DNA of 64,000 nucleotides from Paraburkholderia flava (lineage in GTDB: Bacteria; Pseudomonadota; Gammaproteobacteria; Burkholderiales; Burkholderiaceae), in NCBI RefSeq assembly GCF_004359985.1, contig NZ_SMRO01000001.1, forward strand, positions 1,116,001-1,180,000. Reading direction: 5' to 3'. This document shows positions 34,542-44,809 of this stretch, one piece after another (within the stretch, counting starts at the first letter, position 1; the number at the start of each line of letters is the position of its first letter). The notes beneath the pieces were generated by a model. It ran no database searches. It was not told the DNA's origin and saw only the letters and a program-made list of their open reading frames with translations. The translations under genes and the position numbers were made by a program.

Positions 34542-35894
34542 ATGAAGCGCGTGCCATTTCGCTGCGTTCGAACATTGGGCTATACCGCGGTGCTGCTGCT
34601 CAACGCGGAAGCGTTCGCGCAGTCGCTCGAAGATCAGACTCCGCAGGAAAACGTCGCGACGTTGCGTCAGGAACTCGACCGGCGTGTGCAGGAACTCGAC
34701 GCGCTGAAACGCAGGCTCGCCGATCAGGAAGCGGGCCTTGCGCGCTTGAGTCGTGTGCTGGACAGCGGCACGCTCGCGACGATGCGGGGTGCCGGTGAAG
34801 GCGAGCCGTCAGGCAACGCCCCTGCTGCTGCGAATGGCAGTACACAGACGCAAGCCCCAGCGCCTGCCGTCGCGCAGAATGCGCAGCAGTCCGCGCAACC
34901 ATCGCAGCCCGTCGGCCAGGCGCCGGTACCCGACACGGCTCCGCCTCAGGTCGCGCCGATCTTCGATCAGCCCGGCGTGCTCACGCCGCGCAACAAGTTC
35001 GTGCTGGAGCCGTCGTTCCAGTTCAGCTATTCGTCGACGGATCGTGTTGCGCTGGTCGGCTATACCGTGATCCCTGCATTGTTGATCGGGCTCGTCGACG
35101 TGCGCGAGGTCAAGACGACGACGCTCACCGGCGGCGTCGCGCTGCGTTACGGGATCACGAACCGGATGGAAGTGGAAGTGCGCGTGCCGTACGTCTATTC
35201 GACCAACGATACCGTGAGCCGCGAAATTTTCACAGGCACGGCGCAGGACAATGTGTTCAGCAGCAACGGCCGCGGCATCGGCGACGTCGAGATGACGCTG
35301 CGTTATCAACTGAACGAAGGCGGCCCCGACAAGTTCTATTACATCGGCTGGTTGCGTTTCAAAACGGCGACCGGCAAGAGTCCGTTCGATGTCGTCACCG
35401 ATTGCGTAACGCGCTGCATCGGCAATACGACGGGCACCGGTCTGCCGCTCGAACAACCGACCGGCTCCGGTTTCTATGCGGTGCAGCCGGGTCTCACATG
35501 GCTGTTTCCGAGCGACCCGGTCGTGTTCTTCGGTAATGTCAGCTATCTGCACAGCTTCGCGCGCAGCAATCTGAGCCTGACGATTCTCGATGGAGAAAAG
35601 GACTTCGTCGGCCGCGTGCAGCCTGGCGACATCTGGGGGTTCAATGTCGGCATGGGACTCGCGCTCAACGAGAAAGCATCGGTCAGTCTCGGTTACGACC
35701 AGAGCATCGTGCTGCCGACCAAACAGAACGGCGAGACCGTACCCGGCTCGGTGCGCGTGATTCTCGGGACGCTGCTGCTCGGTTACTCGTACCGGCTGTC
35801 GCCCAAGACCACGCTCAACTTCACGATCGGCGCGGGGCTTACACGCGATACGCCGGATCTGACGTTGACGGTGCGGGTGCCGATTTCGTTCTGA
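34542..35894 (+). CDS. outer-membrane beta-barrel with N-terminal coiled coil (FapF-like exporter)
   Basis: A 450-residue protein. A signal peptide ends near AEAFAQ (about 27). A heptad-patterned helix follows (ENVATLRQELDRRVQELDALKRR, about 36-75), then a Pro/Ala/Gln-rich linker. A C-terminal barrel of about 300 residues with alternating hydrophobic strands starts at LTPRNKFVLEPSFQFSYSS and ends in VRVPISF with a terminal Phe. The coiled coil plus about 12 strands is the plan of FapF, the trimeric amyloid-secretion pore of Pseudomonas. The neighbouring C39 peptidase and small secreted proteins support an export role. Alternatively it is a generic 'phenol degradation meta-pathway' type porin. 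ATG 34542 follows GGAGAACC. Confidence 0.7.
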   Translation: MKRVPFRCVRTLGYTAVLLLNAEAFAQSLEDQTPQENVATLRQELDRRVQELDALKRRLADQEAGLARLSRVLDSGTLATMRGAGEGEPSGNAPAAANGSTQTQAPAPAVAQNAQQSAQPSQPVGQAPVPDTAPPQVAPIFDQPGVLTPRNKFVLEPSFQFSYSSTDRVALVGYTVIPALLIGLVDVREVKTTTLTGGVALRYGITNRMEVEVRVPYVYSTNDTVSREIFTGTAQDNVFSSNGRGIGDVEMTLRYQLNEGGPDKFYYIGWLRFKTATGKSPFDVVTDCVTRCIGNTTGTGLPLEQPTGSGFYAVQPGLTWLFPSDPVVFFGNVSYLHSFARSNLSLTILDGEKDFVGRVQPGDIWGFNVGMGLALNEKASVSLGYDQSIVLPTKQNGETVPGSVRVILGTLLLGYSYRLSPKTTLNFTIGAGLTRDTPDLTLTVRVPISF

Positions 35895-35951
35895 TGTTCT
35901 TCCGACGCTGCGACGTGCGTGGCTACGTCGCAGCTAGTTCGGCCTGCGCAG

Positions 35952-36668
35952 CTAATGCGGATGCACCGCGCTCGCAAGCGCGCCCGTCAGCGTCGACATC
36001 ACGTTCATCCCCTTGAACAGCGACAGCGAATTCACCGACGTGTCGATCGTCGTCATCGCCTGGATCTGCTGGTTGCTCAGCGAGTTCTGCAACACCGAGC
36101 CTGTCAGTGCGGGTAACGCACCCGCCTGCACGACGTTGCCGTGTCCGACCTGAACCAGTGCGCCCGCGTTCGCAGCGATCAATGCCTGTGCCTGCTGTGC
36201 GGTGATCGCGCTGACGTCGGGGATGTTCACGCTGGTCGTCGTGACGAGGTTGCCGTTCACATACGCGACACGCGAAATGCCGAACGACACCTTGAGTCCC
36301 GACGGCATGTCGAAACCGCCGCGCATCGCATCGAGACGGTCTTCGCTGAGCGCGATGGTGGTGGTGCGGGAGGGCCAGCGGGGGTCGTCGGGAGTGTGTG
36401 CGACTTGTGGCTGCTCGACGCGTGACTCCGCCTCGCTGGGTACTGCCGTCATCGCCGGCGGCAGCTCTCTCGCCGAACGCTCGACGTTGCGAGCATCACC
36501 GCTCGCAGCGGTCGCCAAGTCCTGCGCGCCCGGTACATCATGCATCGCGACAACCTCACCCGTCGCCACATCCGGCGCATCATTCCCAGCCGCGCCCGTG
36601 ACGAGCGACACCGTCGCGCCGCACATCGCGGCAGCAACACAGGCCAGCGTTCGCATTGCGGTTTTCAT
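35952..36668 (-). CDS. secreted protein with RGG double-glycine-like motif (a)
   Basis: A 238-residue exported protein of unknown function; the signal region is about 1-27. A variable Pro/Ala/Glu-rich segment leads to LSEDRLDAMRGG at 107-118, which looks like the double-glycine leader cut by C39 peptidases. It is followed by FDMPSGLKVSFGISRVAYVNG. The C-terminal 100 residues are rich in N, Q, S, T and A (VQVGHGNVVQAG, TGSVLQNSLSNQQIQ), like amyloid-forming or FapB/C-like sequences. It is the last gene of the minus-strand cluster, 35 bases behind the C39 peptidase, and converges on the barrel gene. Confidence 0.72.
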   Translation of the reverse strand: MKTAMRTLACVAAAMCGATVSLVTGAAGNDAPDVATGEVVAMHDVPGAQDLATAASGDARNVERSARELPPAMTAVPSEAESRVEQPQVAHTPDDPRWPSRTTTIALSEDRLDAMRGGFDMPSGLKVSFGISRVAYVNGNLVTTTSVNIPDVSAITAQQAQALIAANAGALVQVGHGNVVQAGALPALTGSVLQNSLSNQQIQAMTTIDTSVNSLSLFKGMNVMSTLTGALASAVHPH

Positions 36669-36703
36669 GGCCGTTCCCGAAACTTCCAGAAATCAAAACT
36701 CGA

Positions 36704-37399
36704 TCAAAAATCGCCCGGACCGAGCTTCGGTATCGTGACGTTATAAAGACTGTCGCGACTGATGCCCGTGTACAGCGGCGCGGCGGGCGCAACGCGCCAG
36801 TCGCGTGGATCGTTGAACAGCGCCTGCCCGGGTTTGTTGTGAATCACGAAGAAGACGTGGTCCTCCCACTTCTCCTCGAAACTCGATAGCGGAATCGGCC
36901 GCGTGCCGGTCGCCGGATCGCCGATGAGCACACGCCCGTTGCGCAGTCCCTTGACGACGACGAAGTGGTGATAACCATGCTCGGTGATCAGCACGATCGC
37001 GGGCGTGTTCGTCTCCGCGAGTTTTTGCAGCGGCAGCTCGTAACCGTCCGCGACGAAACCGTGTTCGTCGAGAAAGCGCCGGATGTCAAGCAGCGAGAAA
37101 CCCTGCTGACGGATCTTCGCCTGATCGCCGTGCTCGTACATCTGCGCGAACGCGGTCTGCTCGCTGACCGGATAGTTGTACTGGTAAGTCAGCAACGTCG
37201 CCAGCGCCGCCGACCCGCAACTGAAATCGTATTGCTGCTTGATGGTCCGCTTGAAGCGCGCTTCCTTCAGACTCGTCACGTGCATCGTGTAGCCCGCGCC
37301 CGCCGCATCGACGACGTCGATCTGATCGGCGCGCACGACGCCTGCGAGCAGCCCGCACGTAAGCGCTGAAAACACCAGCAGTACCGCACGCGGATTCAT
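36704..37399 (-). CDS. stand-alone periplasmic C39 cysteine peptidase (FapD-like)
   Basis: A 231-residue papain-fold C39 peptidase with a signal peptide (about 1-24, ending VRADQ) and no ABC-transporter domains. Catalytic residues are visible: the oxyanion Gln at 55/56 and Cys61 in QQYDFSCGSAALATLL, His145 in GYHHFVVVKG and Asp161 in IGDPATG. This is the architecture of FapD of the functional-amyloid operon rather than of bacteriocin exporters. Both flanking genes encode secreted proteins with RGG motifs, its probable substrates. It starts 3 bases after the upstream stop. Confidence 0.88.
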   Translation of the reverse strand: MNPRAVLLVFSALTCGLLAGVVRADQIDVVDAAGAGYTMHVTSLKEARFKRTIKQQYDFSCGSAALATLLTYQYNYPVSEQTAFAQMYEHGDQAKIRQQGFSLLDIRRFLDEHGFVADGYELPLQKLAETNTPAIVLITEHGYHHFVVVKGLRNGRVLIGDPATGTRPIPLSSFEEKWEDHVFFVIHNKPGQALFNDPRDWRVAPAAPLYTGISRDSLYNVTIPKLGPGDF

Positions 37400-37402
37400 C
37401 GC

Positions 37403-37912
37403 TCAGTTCCCGAAGCGGACGTTGAGGATCGTCGCGTTCTGGATCAGCACGTTCGCGCCGGAGTTCTGGATCACCGTCGGCAGGCCGCTCGAATTCGCGA
37501 ACGAGCCCTGCGTGATCGCGTTCGAACCCGTCGATACGTTCTTCGCGCTGTTGTCCGACACGGCGCCGGTGAGCGTCATGTTGCTGATCGTCTGATCGCC
37601 GCCGCGATGCTGGTCCAGTTGCTCGGCGGTCATCGCGACGCCGAAGCTGGAGTCGGATGATGTTGGTGGTGCGCTCTGCTGCTGTGTAATCGACCCGGCC
37701 GGCGCGCGTGCGTCGGGCGTCGTAGCCGCTGCGTCGGTGACAGGCGGCGTCGAAGGCACGACGTCCGCAACCGGTGCAGGAGACGCCGACGATGGCGACG
37801 CAGACACCTCGGTCGCACAGACGTCGACCGTAAGCGCGACCCATCCTATCGCGACCGGAACCACGCAACCCAGCCACCCCGGCCACCGCACTGCACGCGT
37901 GAACGCTTGCAT
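37403..37912 (-). CDS. secreted protein with RGG double-glycine-like motif (b)
   Basis: A 169-residue exported protein. An N-terminal hydrophobic signal (about 8-33) is followed by a Pro/Ser/Thr-rich spacer, then MTAEQLDQHRGG at 94-105, aligned with the LSEDRLDAMRGG of the sister gene. After the double glycine come 64 residues rich in N, S, T and Q with short hydrophobic strands (TGSNAITQGSF, TVIQNSGANVLIQNATIL). This resembles curlin- or Fap-type beta-strand-forming sequence. AAGGAG precedes the ATG. I cannot assign it to a named family. It may be a minor fibre subunit or nucleator. Confidence 0.72.
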   Translation of the reverse strand: MQAFTRAVRWPGWLGCVVPVAIGWVALTVDVCATEVSASPSSASPAPVADVVPSTPPVTDAAATTPDARAPAGSITQQQSAPPTSSDSSFGVAMTAEQLDQHRGGDQTISNMTLTGAVSDNSAKNVSTGSNAITQGSFANSSGLPTVIQNSGANVLIQNATILNVRFGN

Positions 37913-38084
37913 GATTGTCTCCTTGCCCGCCCGAGCCGATGGCTCGCAACGGGTGCTACCCTGCGATTCGTCTCGCCTCGTGCGAGAGCGGGTCTGCTAT
38001 CCGGTGGTGGGCAGTGCATCGCAGGCACACAGCCTCGCGACGCACCGCCTTCTGCCGATACCGCTGATGGTTTGGCCGAACGGT

Positions 38085-39338
38085 TTAATGTCCCACGGTC
38101 AGATTCGCCTGCACGGTGACCGCCTGCTGCACCATCGACGCAAGACCGCTGTTCTGGTTCGCGACCATGATGCCCGCCGCCGATTGCCCGACGCTCGCCA
38201 TGCTGTTGGACATGTTGAACGTGCCGGCATCGACCGCATTGGCTCCGCCTGCGCCACCCGCACCGCCCGTTGCGCCGTTGCCGACGCCGCCGGTACCTAC
38301 GCCACCCGTGCCGCCGGCCGCACCCGCCGCACCGACTGCTCCGTTGCCTGCGGTCGCGCTGCCGTTGCTCGCCATCGTCGACGAGCTGCCGTTGGTCGCC
38401 TGACCGCCGGTGCCGGTGCCGCCTGCGCCGCCCGCACCGCCTGCGCCGGCCATGCTGGTTGCCGCACCGCCTGCACCGCCCGTGCCGGAACCCGCGCCGC
38501 CCGTTCCCGAGCCTGCGCCGCCCGACGCCGTCGCCGTGCCTGCCGAGCCTGCGCCACCGGTGCCGGTCGCGGTGCCTGAGCCGGTTCCGGTGCCGGTGCC
38601 TGCGCCCGTGCTCGCCGTGGCCGTGCCGCCGCCACCGCCGGTACGCGATCTGCCGTCACCCGACGTGCCGCTGCCGCCGCCGAGGCCCGCTGCCAGACCG
38701 CCGCCGCTGCCCCCAGCTGCGCCGCTGCCGGCGAGCGCACTGCCGCCCGTGCCGCCTCCGGTGCCGCCACTGCCGTGGCCCGTGCCGCCCTGCGTGCCGC
38801 CCGCGTGCGCGGTGCCGCCAGCTGCGCCGCGTCCGCCTGCGCCGCCGGTGCCGTCGCCGGCCGTCGCACCACCGTTACTCGCGTAGCCCGCCGACGCGCT
38901 GCCGTTGGTCGCGTCGCCACCGCTGCCGCCCGCACCGCCGTTGCCGCCTTTGCCACCATTGCCGCCGGAACCTGCGCCGCCATAACCCGCGCCGCCCTTA
39001 CCACCCTTGCCGCCGTTCGCATTGCCCCAGTTGCCCGCCTGGTTGCCGATGCCATAGACGCTGACGTTGCTCACGTAGCCATCCAGCTTGCTGAGCGCAA
39101 CGACCTTGGTGTTGTTGAAGGAGTCTTGATAGACCTGTGCACCGGAAGTGATTTCATTGGCGTTGGCGCCGGTGGTGCTGGTCTGGGTGGATGTCGCTGC
39201 ATTGCTGAGGGTGTTCGCGCCGGTGGTGGACTTCTGGGTACAGGACGCGTCCGAGTTATCGCTGCATGGATTTGCCATCGCGTAGCCGCTGAGGCCGAGG
39301 GCAACGGCCGCAGCGGACGCCATTAAAGTCTTTCGCAT
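38085..39338 (-). CDS. glycine-rich secreted low-complexity protein
   Basis: A 417-residue exported protein: signal peptide 1-22 (GYAMA/NPC) and a 75-residue N-domain with two STTGAN repeats and three Cys in all. A Gly/Ala/Thr/Ser-rich region of about 265 residues (100-365) follows, built of short GGAG-, GTGG- and GGKG-type units. The 47-residue C-terminal domain contains FNMSNSMASVGQ and MVANQNSGLASMVQQA. The ends look like strand-forming Fap or curli-like sequence; the middle resembles PGRS-type or silk-like repeats. A very strong AGGAGG precedes ATG 39338. It is most likely the main exported polymer of the locus. Confidence 0.82.
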   Translation of the reverse strand: MRKTLMASAAAVALGLSGYAMANPCSDNSDASCTQKSTTGANTLSNAATSTQTSTTGANANEITSGAQVYQDSFNNTKVVALSKLDGYVSNVSVYGIGNQAGNWGNANGGKGGKGGAGYGGAGSGGNGGKGGNGGAGGSGGDATNGSASAGYASNGGATAGDGTGGAGGRGAAGGTAHAGGTQGGTGHGSGGTGGGTGGSALAGSGAAGGSGGGLAAGLGGGSGTSGDGRSRTGGGGGTATASTGAGTGTGTGSGTATGTGGAGSAGTATASGGAGSGTGGAGSGTGGAGGAATSMAGAGGAGGAGGTGTGGQATNGSSSTMASNGSATAGNGAVGAAGAAGGTGGVGTGGVGNGATGGAGGAGGANAVDAGTFNMSNSMASVGQSAAGIMVANQNSGLASMVQQAVTVQANLTVGH

Positions 39339-40002
39339 GGTTTCCTCCTGATGTGGTGGGACGGCTTGGCCGACTGCGCCAATCCGCGGCACCACGACGC
39401 ATAGAAGGTGCCATGCGTGTAATCCACTGAAAGGGAAAGGGTCTGCGGAATGTGGGCGGGAGGCTTTCCCATTTAATGCATCTGAATACGCATTTATGTT
39501 TCTTGTTTGAAACGCACTAAATACGCGTTATGCGAATTTCAGACGATTATTTCAGATATACAATTATTTTAATTCATGGATTTACGTTCTATTTTTCTAG
39601 TAAATTCGCATGAATATAAAGTGTTTCTGTTTTGCTTCATTCCGGCATCGCTTCTGGCCCGCTTAATGTCATTGCTGGGTGCCGCGCACCTGCTGCTTCT
39701 TTCAAAACCTTACCGGCGCGGGCCTATGGCATAGGGCTGCCAGCTTTCACCATGTTTTATGGAGTGTTGAAAAACGTATCTTTTACGATCTATCTACCCA
39801 CAAGGTCAAAATTTCCTCAATCCCGACTTCACGAATTGCGTAATTCATATCATTGATTATTGTCGGAGCATTTAAAACGATTTCATCAAATTCGCATTCC
39901 GCCAATTACCCTAAACCAGGAATCAGACGAAACAATTTAATACAAATATAGCAGACTCAAGTCAATGCAATTGTTAATTCGCGCACGATAATTGCGTTGT
40001 TT
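39339..40002. other. AT-rich regulatory intergenic region
   Basis: These 664 bases are clearly AT-rich from about 39480 to 40000, in strong contrast to the GC-rich chromosome. No gene is supported; a 74-residue frame at 39632-39856 has no ribosome binding site or family resemblance. This kind of DNA is a typical target for H-NS-like silencers or IHF, and it lies upstream of the candidate sigma-54 promoter of the glycine-rich gene. Confidence 0.5.
39399..39413 (-). promoter_or_regulatory. possible sigma-54 promoter of the glycine-rich gene
   Basis: Read on the minus strand: TGGCAC, five bases, ATGC, matching TGGCAC-N5-TTGC with correct -24 GG / -12 GC spacing and one mismatch. The implied start is about 50 bases before ATG 39338. 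Confidence 0.42.
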
Positions 40003-41938: not shown

Positions 41939-42071
41939 AGTGACATTCGCATGACGCGTTTAAAGATATAGTCGTCTAGACGTCGCGATGCCTTCACTCA
42001 ACGGTCATAGTCGCTTCCTAGAATGTGCCGCAACGCCAACGGATCGTCCTGGCGCGATGGAGAGGTACGTC

Positions 42072-42965
42072 ATGGAAGCAATCCGCATCGAGCGTCTGTC
42101 GAAGACGTTCAACAACGGCCGCAAAGCACTCGACGAAATCGATCTGCGCGTCGAGCCCGGCGAAATGGTCGCGCTGATCGGCGCATCGGGTTCCGGAAAA
42201 TCGACGCTGCTGCGGCATATCGCCGGCTTCACCGTCGCGGACCCGCAGCCGTCGCGCATCGAGATTCTCGGTCGGCCTATTCAACAGGATGGCCGTCTCG
42301 TGCGCGAGGTGCGTAGCATTCGCCGCGATATCAGCTTCGTGTTCCAGCAGTTCAATCTCGTGAACCGGCTGACGGTGCAGACCAACGTGCTGATCGGCGC
42401 GCTCGCGCGGCTGCCGTTCTGGCGTCGTATCACCGGGATTTTTCCGCGCGGCGAACGCGAACTCGCGATGACCGCGCTCGCCGAAGTCGGCATCGATGGA
42501 CACGCGGCCGAACGCGCGGCGAACCTGTCGGGCGGTCAGCAACAGCGTGCGGCGCTGGCACGCGCACTCGTGCAGCGCGCACGCATCATCCTCGCCGACG
42601 AACCGATTGCATCGCTCGATCCCGAGTCGTCGCGCCGCGTGATGGACATGCTGCGCGCGCTCAATACGAACCATCAATTGACCGTACTGGTTTCGCTGCA
42701 TCAGGTGGACATCGCGATGCAGTACTGCGCGCGCACCGTTGCGCTGCGGCAGGGCAAGGTCGTGTACGACGGACCGTCCGCCGCGCTGACGCCTGCGCTG
42801 CTGCGCGAGCTGTACGGCAGTGCCGCTCGTGAACTGCTCGAAGGAAGCACGGCCACCACGGGCGAAGCGAGCGACGTCGTCGGCAGCATTCCGGCAACGC
42901 CTCCCTCTCAAGACGCACCGTCGCACACCACACCCTCACCGTATGCGTTCGCGCATTCGGTCTGA
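42072..42965 (+). CDS. phnC: phosphonate ABC transporter ATP-binding protein
   Basis: A 297-residue ABC ATPase of the PhnC family. Walker A is GASGSGKST, the signature NLSGGQQQR and Walker B IILADEP. The D- and H-loop regions are intact ([17 protein letters not shown]). A C-terminal extension of about 30 residues is low-complexity. It energises uptake of phosphonates or related phosphorus compounds with PhnD and PhnE. GGAGAGG precedes ATG 42072. The two upstream ATGs in frame are less likely starts. It is the first gene of a Pho-box-preceded operon. Confidence 0.93.
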
Positions 42966-43016
42966 ACGCTCACCGCTCACGCTTTCTTATCCGCATCACC
43001 ACAGGACTTCCGCTCG

Positions 43017-43979
43017 ATGAAATTCCTCCGCACCCTGATCGCAGGCGTCGTCGCATTCGCGTGCGTCGCCGCTCACGCCGAAGATCTGAACTTCGGCATC
43101 ATCTCGACCGATTCGTCGGCAGTGCTCAAGCAACGCTGGCAGCCGCTGATCGACGACATGAACAAGCAGACCGGCCTGAACGTGAAGGCATTCTTCGCCA
43201 CCGACTATTCGGGGATCATCGAAGGCATGCGCTTCAACAAGGTTCAGATCGGTTACTTCGGCAATGCGTCGGCGATGGAAGCCGTCGATCGTTCGAACGG
43301 CGAAGTGTTCGCGAAGATGCAGTATGCGAACGGCGATGCCGGCTACTACTCGCTGCTGATCACGAACGTGAACAGCCGCTTCAAGACACTCGACGACGTG
43401 TTCCGCAACACGAAGGACGTGACGCTCGGTTTCGGCGATCCGAACTCGACGTCGGGCACGCTGATTCCCGGCTACTACCTGTTCGCGCAACACCATACGC
43501 CGGTGAACACGTCGTTCAAGACGGTGCTGCCGTCGAGCCACGAAGCGAATCTGCTGGCCGTCGTAAACAACAAGATCGACATCGCGACGAACAACACCGA
43601 AATGCTCGCGACGCTGCAAAAGCTGCATCCGGACAAGTTCGCGCAGGTGCGCGTGCTGTGGAAGTCGCCGCTGATCCCGTCCGATCCGCTCGTGTGGCGC
43701 AAGGATTTGCCGCAAGCGACGAAGGACAAGCTGCGTACGTTCTTCCTGAACTACGCAAAGACCGATCCGCGTGAAAAGCAGATCATGGCGAACATCACCG
43801 GCTACAGCGGCTTCGCGGCATCGAGCGATGCGCAGTTGCTGCCGATCCGCCAGGTCGCGCTGTTCCAGCAGAAGCAGAAGATCGAAGCCGACACGCATCT
43901 GTCGGATGACGAGCGCAAGACGCAGACGGCCGCACTCGACGCGAAGCTTGCCGCACTCGACACCGCCGCAAAGCAATGA
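43017..43979 (+). CDS. phnD: phosphonate ABC transporter substrate-binding protein
   Basis: A 320-residue periplasmic binding protein with signal peptide (about 1-21, ending AAHAE). The PhnD-type core has [45 protein letters not shown] and the family motif [18 protein letters not shown], whose Ser/Thr bind the phosphonate. It may bind phosphonates, phosphite or phosphate esters. It lies 51 bases behind phnC and overlaps phnE by four bases (ATGA). Confidence 0.94.
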
Positions 43980-44809
43980 ACGCCGCCGATCTCGACGCGT
44001 CCCGCGTAACGGGCAACGCCGCTTCATCTGCCACGAACGGTGCAGCAGCAACCGGCAAGCGCAGTTGGTTGTCGCTCGTGGGCTGGATCGTCGCGATCGC
44101 GCTGCTGGGTCTGTCGTGGCGCGGCGCAGATATGCGCCCGCTCGATCTGCTGTCCGACTCCGGCAACATGGGGCAGTTCGCGAAGGACTTCTTCCCGCCC
44201 GACTTCGCCGAGTGGCGTGTCTATGTGCACGAACTGCTGATCACGCTGGCCGTTGCGTTGTGGGGCACCGTGCTCGCAGTCGTCTGCGCGATTCCGTGCG
44301 GTCTGCTGTCGGCGCGCAACATGGCGCCGCAGTGGGTCGTGCAGCCGGTGCGTCGCATGATGGACGCATGCCGCGCGATCAACGAGATGGTGTTCGCGAT
44401 GCTGTTCATCGTCGCGGTCGGACTCGGCCCGTTCGCCGGCGTGCTCGCGTTGTGGGTGCACACCACCGGCGTCCTCGCGAAACTGTTTGCCGAAGCCGTC
44501 GAAGCAATCGATCCGCGTCCCGCCGAGGGTGTGCGTGCGACCGGCGCGACCGGACTCGACGAGATCGTCTACGGCGTCTTGCCGCAAGTGCTGCCGCTGT
44601 GGATTTCGTACGTGCTGTACCGCTTCGAATCGAACGTGCGCTCGGCGATGGTGGTCGGCATGGTCGGCGCGGGCGGGATCGGCGTCGTGCTGTACGAAGC
44701 GATCCGCTCGTTCAACTACGCGCAGACGGCGGCAGTGATGATCATGGTGATCGTCGTTGTGACGGCGATCGATCTGATATCTGCGCGGATGCGGGAGCGG
44801 GTGATCTGA
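43976..44809 (+). CDS. phnE: phosphonate ABC transporter permease
   Basis: A 277-residue inner-membrane permease with about six helices after a 30-residue Ala/Thr-rich N-terminus. The EAA-type cytoplasmic loop reads [20 protein letters not shown]. It forms the channel for PhnCDE uptake. No C-P lyase or phosphonatase genes follow; degradation must be encoded elsewhere, or the system serves another phosphorus compound. Confidence 0.93.

Follow-up and report, generated by a model that had tools for sequence, protein, structure and literature searches.

A Fap-related export locus with a glycine-rich main subunit in Paraburkholderia flava

In order to follow up an earlier note, made from the sequence alone, which had proposed a Fap-like export locus for a glycine-rich polymer, we analysed a stretch of 64,000 nucleotides from Paraburkholderia flava (assembly GCF_004359985.1, contig NZ_SMRO01000001.1, positions 1,116,001 to 1,180,000 of the forward strand), hereafter called the window. 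The locus spans 34542-39413 and consists of a gene for a FapF-type outer-membrane barrel and, on the opposite strand, a set of four genes (Table 1). Read from its sequence, it is a widespread and unnamed relative of the system that exports amyloid fibres in Pseudomonas, with a main subunit that carries a long glycine-rich spacer. It is a Fap-related export system and very probably works like Fap. It stands outside canonical Fap as defined, because its small protein holds one repeat and its glycine-rich (Gly-rich) protein one related segment where canonical subunits hold several, and because none of its five proteins matched the NCBIfam models of FapA, FapB or FapC at E ≤ 0.1.

Barrel, peptidase and candidate fibre subunits

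On the minus strand, the genes for the Gly-rich protein, a small secreted protein, a C39 peptidase and a FapE-like protein lie in this order, separated by 172, 3 and 35 bases, a spacing from which a single operon is likely; the barrel gene converges with them at a separation of 57 bases. All five proteins begin with what resembles a Sec signal peptide, as judged from the sequence without a predictor. Three of the five, the Gly-rich, small and FapE-like proteins, matched no NCBIfam model at E ≤ 0.1 and no Pfam model. Close relatives were gathered in 115 rows, which correspond to 103 distinct loci, 12 rows being second copies of the same locus; these copies are counted in the 115-row motif alignment, the glycine autocorrelation, both sigma-54 scans, the heptad analysis and the four-repeat profile search. 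Our analysis revealed all five families together in 101 of the 103 distinct loci, from Burkholderiales and Xanthomonadales, and the two misses (L057 and L078) end at a contig edge, which argues against grouping by chance. The earlier note had placed the five genes side by side, and all frames were found at those places. A class-wide survey added a sister set of 14 loci (L225-L238, with L238 itself of the window type), and in 12 of them the small protein, peptidase, FapE-like protein and barrel are kept together. The barrel gene follows the operon on the same strand in 67 of the 115 rows, lies downstream on the opposite strand in 42 and lies upstream in 6.

The barrel follows the FapF plan with an N-terminal coiled coil, as had been claimed for it. 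Its residues 131-449 match the solved structure of FapF (E 8.8e-28), the sole PDB match at E ≤ 1, and its residues 39-450 match the NCBIfam FapF model (E 4.8e-42) with 144 bits against a cut-off of 700. The canonical FapF of the same genome also falls below this equivalog cut-off, at 353 of 700 bits, so that the cut-off does not separate the two systems. An AlphaFold2 model of the single chain, built from 24 aligned sequences, predicted a helix at residues 34-82, a low-confidence, unstructured stretch at 83-145 and strands at 153-445, with a mean predicted local distance difference test score (pLDDT) of 72. A heptad signal precedes the barrel motif described below: among the 96 of 115 barrel rows taken into this analysis the mean z was 6.9 and 95% exceeded 2, the window copy reaching 7.4.

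The stand-alone C39 protein likewise has the FapD plan proposed by the earlier note. It matches the FapD model (E 1.2e-39; 136 bits, cut-off 330), and Q55, C61, H145 and D161, which we take to be the catalytic residues of the C39 family, are invariant across 13 aligned sequences. Its start reads as signal-like in the sequence, and the positions of the catalytic Cys, His and Asp are kept. Barrel and peptidase also match, more weakly than FapF and FapD, the models of the Acinetobacter Fil system (the barrel FilC, E 3.9e-16 in NCBIfam; the C39 protein FilB, E 5e-34), and no further Fil model matched the remaining three proteins of the window.

Profile searches identified the small protein as a leader followed by one FapB-type repeat. 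In two sister loci (L228 and L231) the product of the gene at the fibre position consists of four plain repeats, and the profile of the small protein matches these four-repeat subunits with E down to 4.1e-25 in a three-sequence search and 1.3e-22 in a search of all frames of 14 loci. A profile of the four-repeat subunits (12 repeats) gave 14 matches among 919 open frames of 20 canonical-type loci, all of them FapB, the best at 2.3e-7 and 12 at E 3e-3 or better. It also matched 115 of 115 small proteins at E ≤ 0.01 (window copy 3.4e-5), and zero shuffled sequences at that threshold. Of the 115 Gly-rich proteins, 18 were matched by the four-repeat profile and 23 by the other repeat profile. The C-terminal segment of the Gly-rich protein aligned in hhalign with the mature small protein (93.1%, E 3.1e-7), in a comparison that used 104 Gly-rich C-termini, and the Gly-rich protein probably ends in a repeat related to that of the small protein. 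Since the small protein and the Gly-rich end probably carry related repeats, the glycine-rich part between the conserved segments can be seen as a variable spacer. We set aside a hhalign match of the Gly-rich protein to FapC (82.9%), which is confined to the beginning of each sequence.

The 417-residue glycine-rich protein of the earlier note is present, with a signal-peptide-like start. Open frames of its family of at least 290 residues contain 9-34% glycine (median 28%; at least 20% in 89 of 92), as calculated on frames not trimmed to the true start. Among the low values, L144 (9%) consists mostly of Asn/Thr/Ser/Asp repeats, L151 (17%) mixes both kinds, and L123 (17%) is owed to an over-long frame. 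The fibre proteins of the sister loci L226, L227, L233, L234 and L235 hold 3-6% glycine, and the four of the five that were read have Asn/Ser/Asp-rich spacers; in L226, L233 and L234, hundreds of residues of such repeats (e.g. DNSNNSDNS) lie between conserved ends. The export machine is thus not dedicated to the glycine-rich polymer that had been proposed for it, because its fibre protein is sometimes Asn/Ser/Asp-rich or made of four plain repeats. Glycine autocorrelation over 103 sequences of at least 290 residues gave a mean z of 3.58 at lag 3 (above 2 in 94%; window copy 2.4) and of -0.01 at lag 2. This argues against a silk-like (GA)n polymer, which we reject, and for GGX; the lag-3 periodicity fits GGX and a polyglycine II spacer. 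Some glycine-rich GGX proteins form polyglycine-II bundles, for instance the snow-flea antifreeze protein. The window protein shares with them the glycine period of three, but its spacer is bounded by conserved segments and is known from sequence. Two tandem Gly-rich genes occur in many Paraburkholderia-type loci (L075, L080-L087, L039, L041-L044); the window has one.

A shared motif and the canonical Fap operon

The linker of the barrel has a motif of the form hydrophobic-x4-L-x3-R-G-[G/A] in common with the small and FapE-like proteins. In the alignment of the 103 distinct loci, the FapE-like protein has L in 103, R in 103, G in 102 and G in 103, with GG in 102; the small protein has L in 103, R in 83 or S in 18, G in 103 and G in 102. 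V, L, I, M or A stands five residues before the L in nearly all aligned sequences. In shuffled versions of the window's small, FapE-like and barrel proteins the motif arose by chance in 5, 16 and 53 of 5000, and it was not found in the window's C39 peptidase or Gly-rich protein. The barrel motif coincides with the predicted end of the helix, and although the barrel is not a relative of the small and FapE-like proteins, its best profile match to each of them lands on the motif alone (59.7% and 48.2%); the peptidase, as a control in the same comparison, gave 1.7-21.5% with the small protein, the FapE-like protein and the barrel. A distant relationship links the small protein to the FapE-like one (hhalign 97.8%, E 8.9e-13, over leader and repeat), and given this homology we reject three independent carriers of the motif and count two, the secreted pair and the barrel. 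We also reject the idea that all barrels carry the motif in strict form, since it is degenerate in relatives. By these alignments the FapE-like protein is the constant carrier, with RGG in 12 of 12 class-survey loci, while the small protein is firm in the window's branch and the barrel is doubtful. The two N/Q/S/T-rich secreted proteins of the earlier note are present; each has a double-glycine motif, and we re-read one as FapB-like with a single repeat and the other as FapE-like.

C39 substrates carry a double-glycine leader of the type LSxxELxxIxGG. The likeness to the window lies in a leader of the form hydrophobic-x4-L-x3-x-G-[G/A/S] beside a C39 gene; each of the two secreted proteins keeps its GG in 102 of 103 loci. 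Bacteriocin C39 domains, however, sit in ATP-binding cassette (ABC) transporters, whereas the window peptidase stands alone with a signal peptide and no ABC transporter is found among the five genes; unlike bacteriocin leaders, the window motif follows a Sec signal and a long low-complexity stretch.

The window locus is not the canonical Fap operon of this organism, because a full fapABCDEF set sits elsewhere in its genome. A second FapF and FapD pair was found on another contig, where the NCBIfam models of FapA (3.5e-11), FapB (2.3e-22), FapC (5.4e-12), FapD (4.2e-63), FapE (4.1e-10) and FapF (1.7e-105) are matched, all six below their curated cut-offs. In a C39 tree of 57 rows, the window type and the sister loci separated from 12 canonical-type rows and six relatives with support 97/92. 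The tree took 12 of 21 canonical-type loci through a motif filter and was rooted at the midpoint with no ABC-type outgroup, and 20 loci were labelled canonical, of which at least L200 falls away from the main cluster of that type. We claim no more than the main split, because of long branches, the midpoint root and a bootstrap that had not settled. With the canonical operon at another locus and the C39 groups separate in the tree, we reject an ordinary canonical Fap as the identity of the window locus. The canonical operon (L006; G000 contig C2, 693000-708000) is flanked on both sides by frames that by eye resemble sigma-54 activators, with GESGTGKE and GAFTGA motifs, at L006 3520-5112 (-) and 12047-13447 (+).

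We further found the same motif in 27 of 27 unique canonical FapE proteins (residues 31-143 of the frame; R in 17, T in 10), where it always ends in GK or GR in place of GG, as in LSDPELAQMRGRF, VSDPVLAQMRGKF and VDDDVLAQQTGKY. Eighteen of them came from the 20 canonical-type loci and nine from a family search (339 genomes, 14 positive), none being known as Pseudomonas; a wider FapE protein search gave 11 matches. The window's FapE-like protein aligns with canonical FapE over 35 columns at the motif (hhalign 93.7%; mature part alone 0.2%, with 114 mature FapE-like parts used). The motif with GR or GK in canonical FapE is a candidate for the recognition site of FapD. In the canonical set, 6 of 14 FapA-like proteins show a VSDxxLTxAHGS-like form. 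A further small protein, encoded upstream of the canonical fapA gene, has LDDxxLxxQRG[G/T] in 7 of 10 cases (L006 11001-11681 (-); L187-L189, L191-L193); for its L006 copy NCBIfam gave no match and Pfam none above cut-off. This protein may be another FapD substrate.

For Pseudomonas, the work of Rouse et al. (2017; PMC5557850) describes Fap proteins as being without canonical C39 sequences, calls the target of FapD unclear, reports no peptides from the first ~70 residues of FapE, and allows that the FapF linker may be cut. A 2018 review called the FapD substrate undetermined and placed fapD-fapF neighbours in five further phyla (PMC6173800); according to a 2025 review, FapD is 'thought to process' FapE and FapF, and three repeats are nearly always present in FapB and FapC (PMC12822426). 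FapA is described as often missing from Fap operons (PMC3792158). The window shares with Pseudomonas Fap a FapF-type barrel with coiled coil and linker, a FapD-type C39 protein, a putatively FapE-like protein, a FapB-type repeat, and a sigma-54-type site on the operon with none on the barrel gene. In contrast to Fap, it has no FapA match and its gene order is subunit, FapB-like, FapD, FapE-like, barrel; its FapB-like protein combines a double-glycine leader with a single repeat, its main subunit has one terminal repeat-like segment and a Gly-rich spacer, its C39 protein falls in a separate group, and its motif ends in GG where the canonical one has GR or GK.

A conserved sigma-54-type site, as scored on sequence, precedes the operon and not the barrel gene. 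In the 93 of 115 loci covered by the scan, the upstream score reached at least 12 of 15 in 86 and at least 13 in 60, against 8.9% and 1.6% of shuffles, and 82 of the 86 sites begin 75-132 bases before the Gly-rich ATG. The control stretch before the small protein scored at least 12 in 26 of 93 and at least 13 in 1 of 93. Among the barrels, none of 28 inverted and 3 of 50 on the same strand had an upstream score of at least 12 (shuffles 8.3%), after leaving out 37 of 115 whose start could not be placed or whose upstream DNA was too short. The exact pattern counted over the whole genome was uninformative (forward/reverse 7/5, control 5/11). In P. fluorescens, fapA-E is reported to have an RpoN -24/-12 promoter, and fapF was not upregulated along with fapA-E (PMC9207406). 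The activator BrfA is reported to sense cyclic di-GMP (c-di-GMP; PMC13101488), and in B. cenocepacia RpoN and the c-di-GMP effector BerB are tied to biofilm (PMC5552954). That the window operon responds to c-di-GMP is a guess.

Proposed mechanism and its alternatives

We propose that sigma-54 RNA polymerase transcribes the four-gene operon, the barrel gene being without such a site. All five proteins would reach the periplasm by the Sec route, where the C39 peptidase would read the hydrophobic-x4-L-x3-R-G-G leader in the small and FapE-like proteins and cut after it. These cuts would release a one-repeat FapB-like peptide of about 64 residues and a FapE-like protein of about 120 residues; the barrel would perhaps be cut where its coiled coil meets the linker, and its gating would change as a result. 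Both released subunits, together with the Gly-rich protein, which stays uncut, would exit through the barrel and assemble outside via the repeat that they share; the bulk of the fibre would be formed by the main subunit's GGX spacer. On the sequence evidence given above, we consider it likely that the locus belongs to a branch of Fap-type fibre secretion and works in this way. The sequences themselves establish which genes stand together and to which families they belong, along with the motif, the small protein's FapB-type repeat, the period 3 of the spacer and the promoter-like site; cleavage, export route, assembly and any role of the locus in biofilm are what we infer. A broader proposal, which we offer as tentative and rather doubtful, is that one processing code holds across the Fap family: a FapD-type peptidase would read hydrophobic-x4-L-x3-R-G-(G/K/R) in FapE everywhere, some branches would have added substrates (here the FapB-like subunit and the barrel linker, the latter affecting gating), and the fibre would be a composite of amyloid repeats and exchangeable spacers, either polyglycine-II (GGX) or Asn/Ser/Asp-rich.

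Several observations weigh against Fap-type secretion in this form. Searched against the 919 canonical-type frames, the profile of the small protein after its GG gave 13 matches at E ≤ 1 (12 FapB, one FapE; best 1.1e-7), but its shuffled control gave seven, the best at 0.0068, so that only the two best FapB matches (1.1e-7 and 1.2e-3) are clear. The Gly-rich protein of the window was missed by both repeat profiles, and the Gly-rich C-terminal segment reaches FapB only weakly (hhalign 5.6%); the segment was not upheld as a clear FapB repeat, and its link to Fap runs indirectly via the small-protein repeat. The Gly-rich protein also has no motif. The small and FapE-like motifs are not independent, because the two proteins are homologous, and hhalign values near 60%, such as that of the barrel, are noise here, the peptidase having reached 62.1% with FapB. 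In the barrel, L is kept in 100 and R in 99 of the 103 distinct loci, but the first G is A in 28 (G in 75) and the next residue varies (G 41, A 31, T 16, R 8). Among the class-survey loci the barrel shows the motif in 1 of 14, and the small protein in 8 of 13 but with GG in only 2. Canonical FapF of Burkholderiaceae has a variant one residue longer, and canonical FapE has GR or GK, not GG.

The best of the alternatives, though unlikely, treats the motif as a docking site and the C39 protein as a chaperone or gate, not as a protease for these proteins. The GR or GK of canonical FapE would suit it, as would the frequent lack of GG in barrels and in sister-locus small proteins, and some C39-like domains are described as binding without cutting (PMC5557850). 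Against docking stand the four invariant residues Gln, Cys, His and Asp in 13 aligned sequences and the GG in 102 of 103 loci for both secreted proteins; in Pseudomonas, moreover, loss of the FapD cysteine is reported to stop secretion (PMC5557850).

Somewhat less probable is a diverged canonical Fap operon with a Gly-rich FapC, in which case nothing would separate the locus from Fap. Barrel, peptidase, FapE-like and FapB-like parts do all have Fap counterparts, but the same genome holds a full canonical fapABCDEF set, the window C39 protein stands apart from the 12 canonical-type rows of the tree (97/92), no NCBIfam match to FapA, B, C or E was obtained at E ≤ 0.1, and the gene order differs. 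A role of the Gly-rich protein in the cell envelope or in desiccation, with no more than a shared operon and no export through the barrel, strikes us as very improbable: the protein's lack of the leader motif and its indirect C-terminal link to the Fap repeat would agree with that, yet a relative of it precedes the small protein in each of those among the 103 loci whose contig extends far enough, its C-terminal segment is related to the small-protein repeat (93.1%), and two sister loci encode a four-repeat Fap-type subunit in its place. That the barrel is an uptake channel of COG4313 or phenol-degradation type, unrelated to secretion, is scarcely credible despite the resemblance of FapF itself to COG4313 channels (PMC6173800) and a marginal Autotransporter match in Pfam (26.4 bits, cut-off 26), given a FapF model match from residue 39 to the end, a helix and linker in the predicted model, and the constant linkage of the barrel to the C39 protein and subunits.

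Fap-type fibre secretion as proposed here would extend to many Burkholderiales and Xanthomonadales. A literature search, mostly without subscription papers, found no paper naming this motif or describing the Gly-rich locus. The candidate cleavage code is, in our view, the most useful product of comparing the two systems: the FapD-type site appears in nearly canonical form here, carried by the two secreted proteins and in a looser version by the barrel, so that the motif can be read in canonical FapE and the FapD cleavage code could be decided by mutation. The exported spacer, which can switch from Gly-rich to Asn/Ser/Asp-rich, is of interest for designed fibres.

Distribution and features of the locus

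A close relative of the C39 protein (at least 268 bits) was present in 35 of 150 Burkholderiaceae genomes, the window's own included, and 16 of these 35 hold a second C39 protein at 102-125 bits, the band of this genome's canonical FapD. Among the best 80 of 571 confirmed places, the survey named Burkholderia, Paraburkholderia, Ralstonia, Cupriavidus, Pandoraea, Pararobbsia, Janthinobacterium, Rhodoferax, Polaromonas, Lysobacter, Dyella, Rhodanobacter, Pseudoxanthomonas and Luteibacter, among others. The distinct branch in Burkholderiaceae that the earlier note had suggested is thus borne out as a separate C39 group but is wider than that family, reaching Comamonadaceae, Oxalobacteraceae and Xanthomonadales. 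The locus or its small protein was also seen in L072, L074 and the proteins P0022 and P0097, whose species are presumably members of the Burkholderia cepacia complex. A 2013 survey reported no fap genes in that complex (PMC3792158).

Table 1. Coordinates of the locus and of its sequence features within the window
Feature	Position	Strand	Remarks
FapF-type barrel	34542..35894	+	450 aa; signal peptide, coiled-coil helix, disordered linker, beta-barrel
Predicted periplasmic coiled-coil helix, barrel residues 34-82	34641..34787	+	AlphaFold2 and heptad periodicity
LDSGTLATMRGA motif, barrel residues 73-84, end of coiled coil	34758..34793	+	possible C39 cleavage site
FapE-like secreted protein	35952..36668	-	238 aa; hhalign to canonical FapE 93.7%, motif region only
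LSEDRLDAMRGG motif, FapE-like protein residues 107-118	36315..36350	-	candidate C39 cleavage site
FapD-type stand-alone C39 peptidase with signal peptide	36704..37399	-	231 aa; family models
Small secreted protein, leader then one FapB-type repeat	37403..37912	-	169 aa; profile searches
FapB-type repeat, small protein residues 129-164	37421..37528	-	profile alignment
MTAEQLDQHRGG motif, small protein residues 94-105	37598..37633	-	candidate C39 cleavage site
Gly-rich fibre-subunit candidate	38085..39338	-	417 aa; signal peptide, conserved N- and C-terminal segments
Conserved C-terminal segment of Gly-rich protein	38088..38219	-	probably related to small-protein repeat; hhalign 93.1%, E 3.1e-7
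Glycine-rich spacer, Gly-rich protein about residues 105-366	38241..39026	-	GGX-like period 3
Sigma-54-type -24/-12 site TGGCACCTTCTATGCG	39398..39413	-	begins 75 nt before Gly-rich gene ATG

On the upstream side of the operon, the DNA at 39400-40000 is AT-rich (36-48% GC), and the adjoining Gly-rich gene reaches up to 83% GC. A phosphonate-type ABC transporter set (ATPase, binding protein and permease), recognised by eye at 41988-44809, adjoins the locus.

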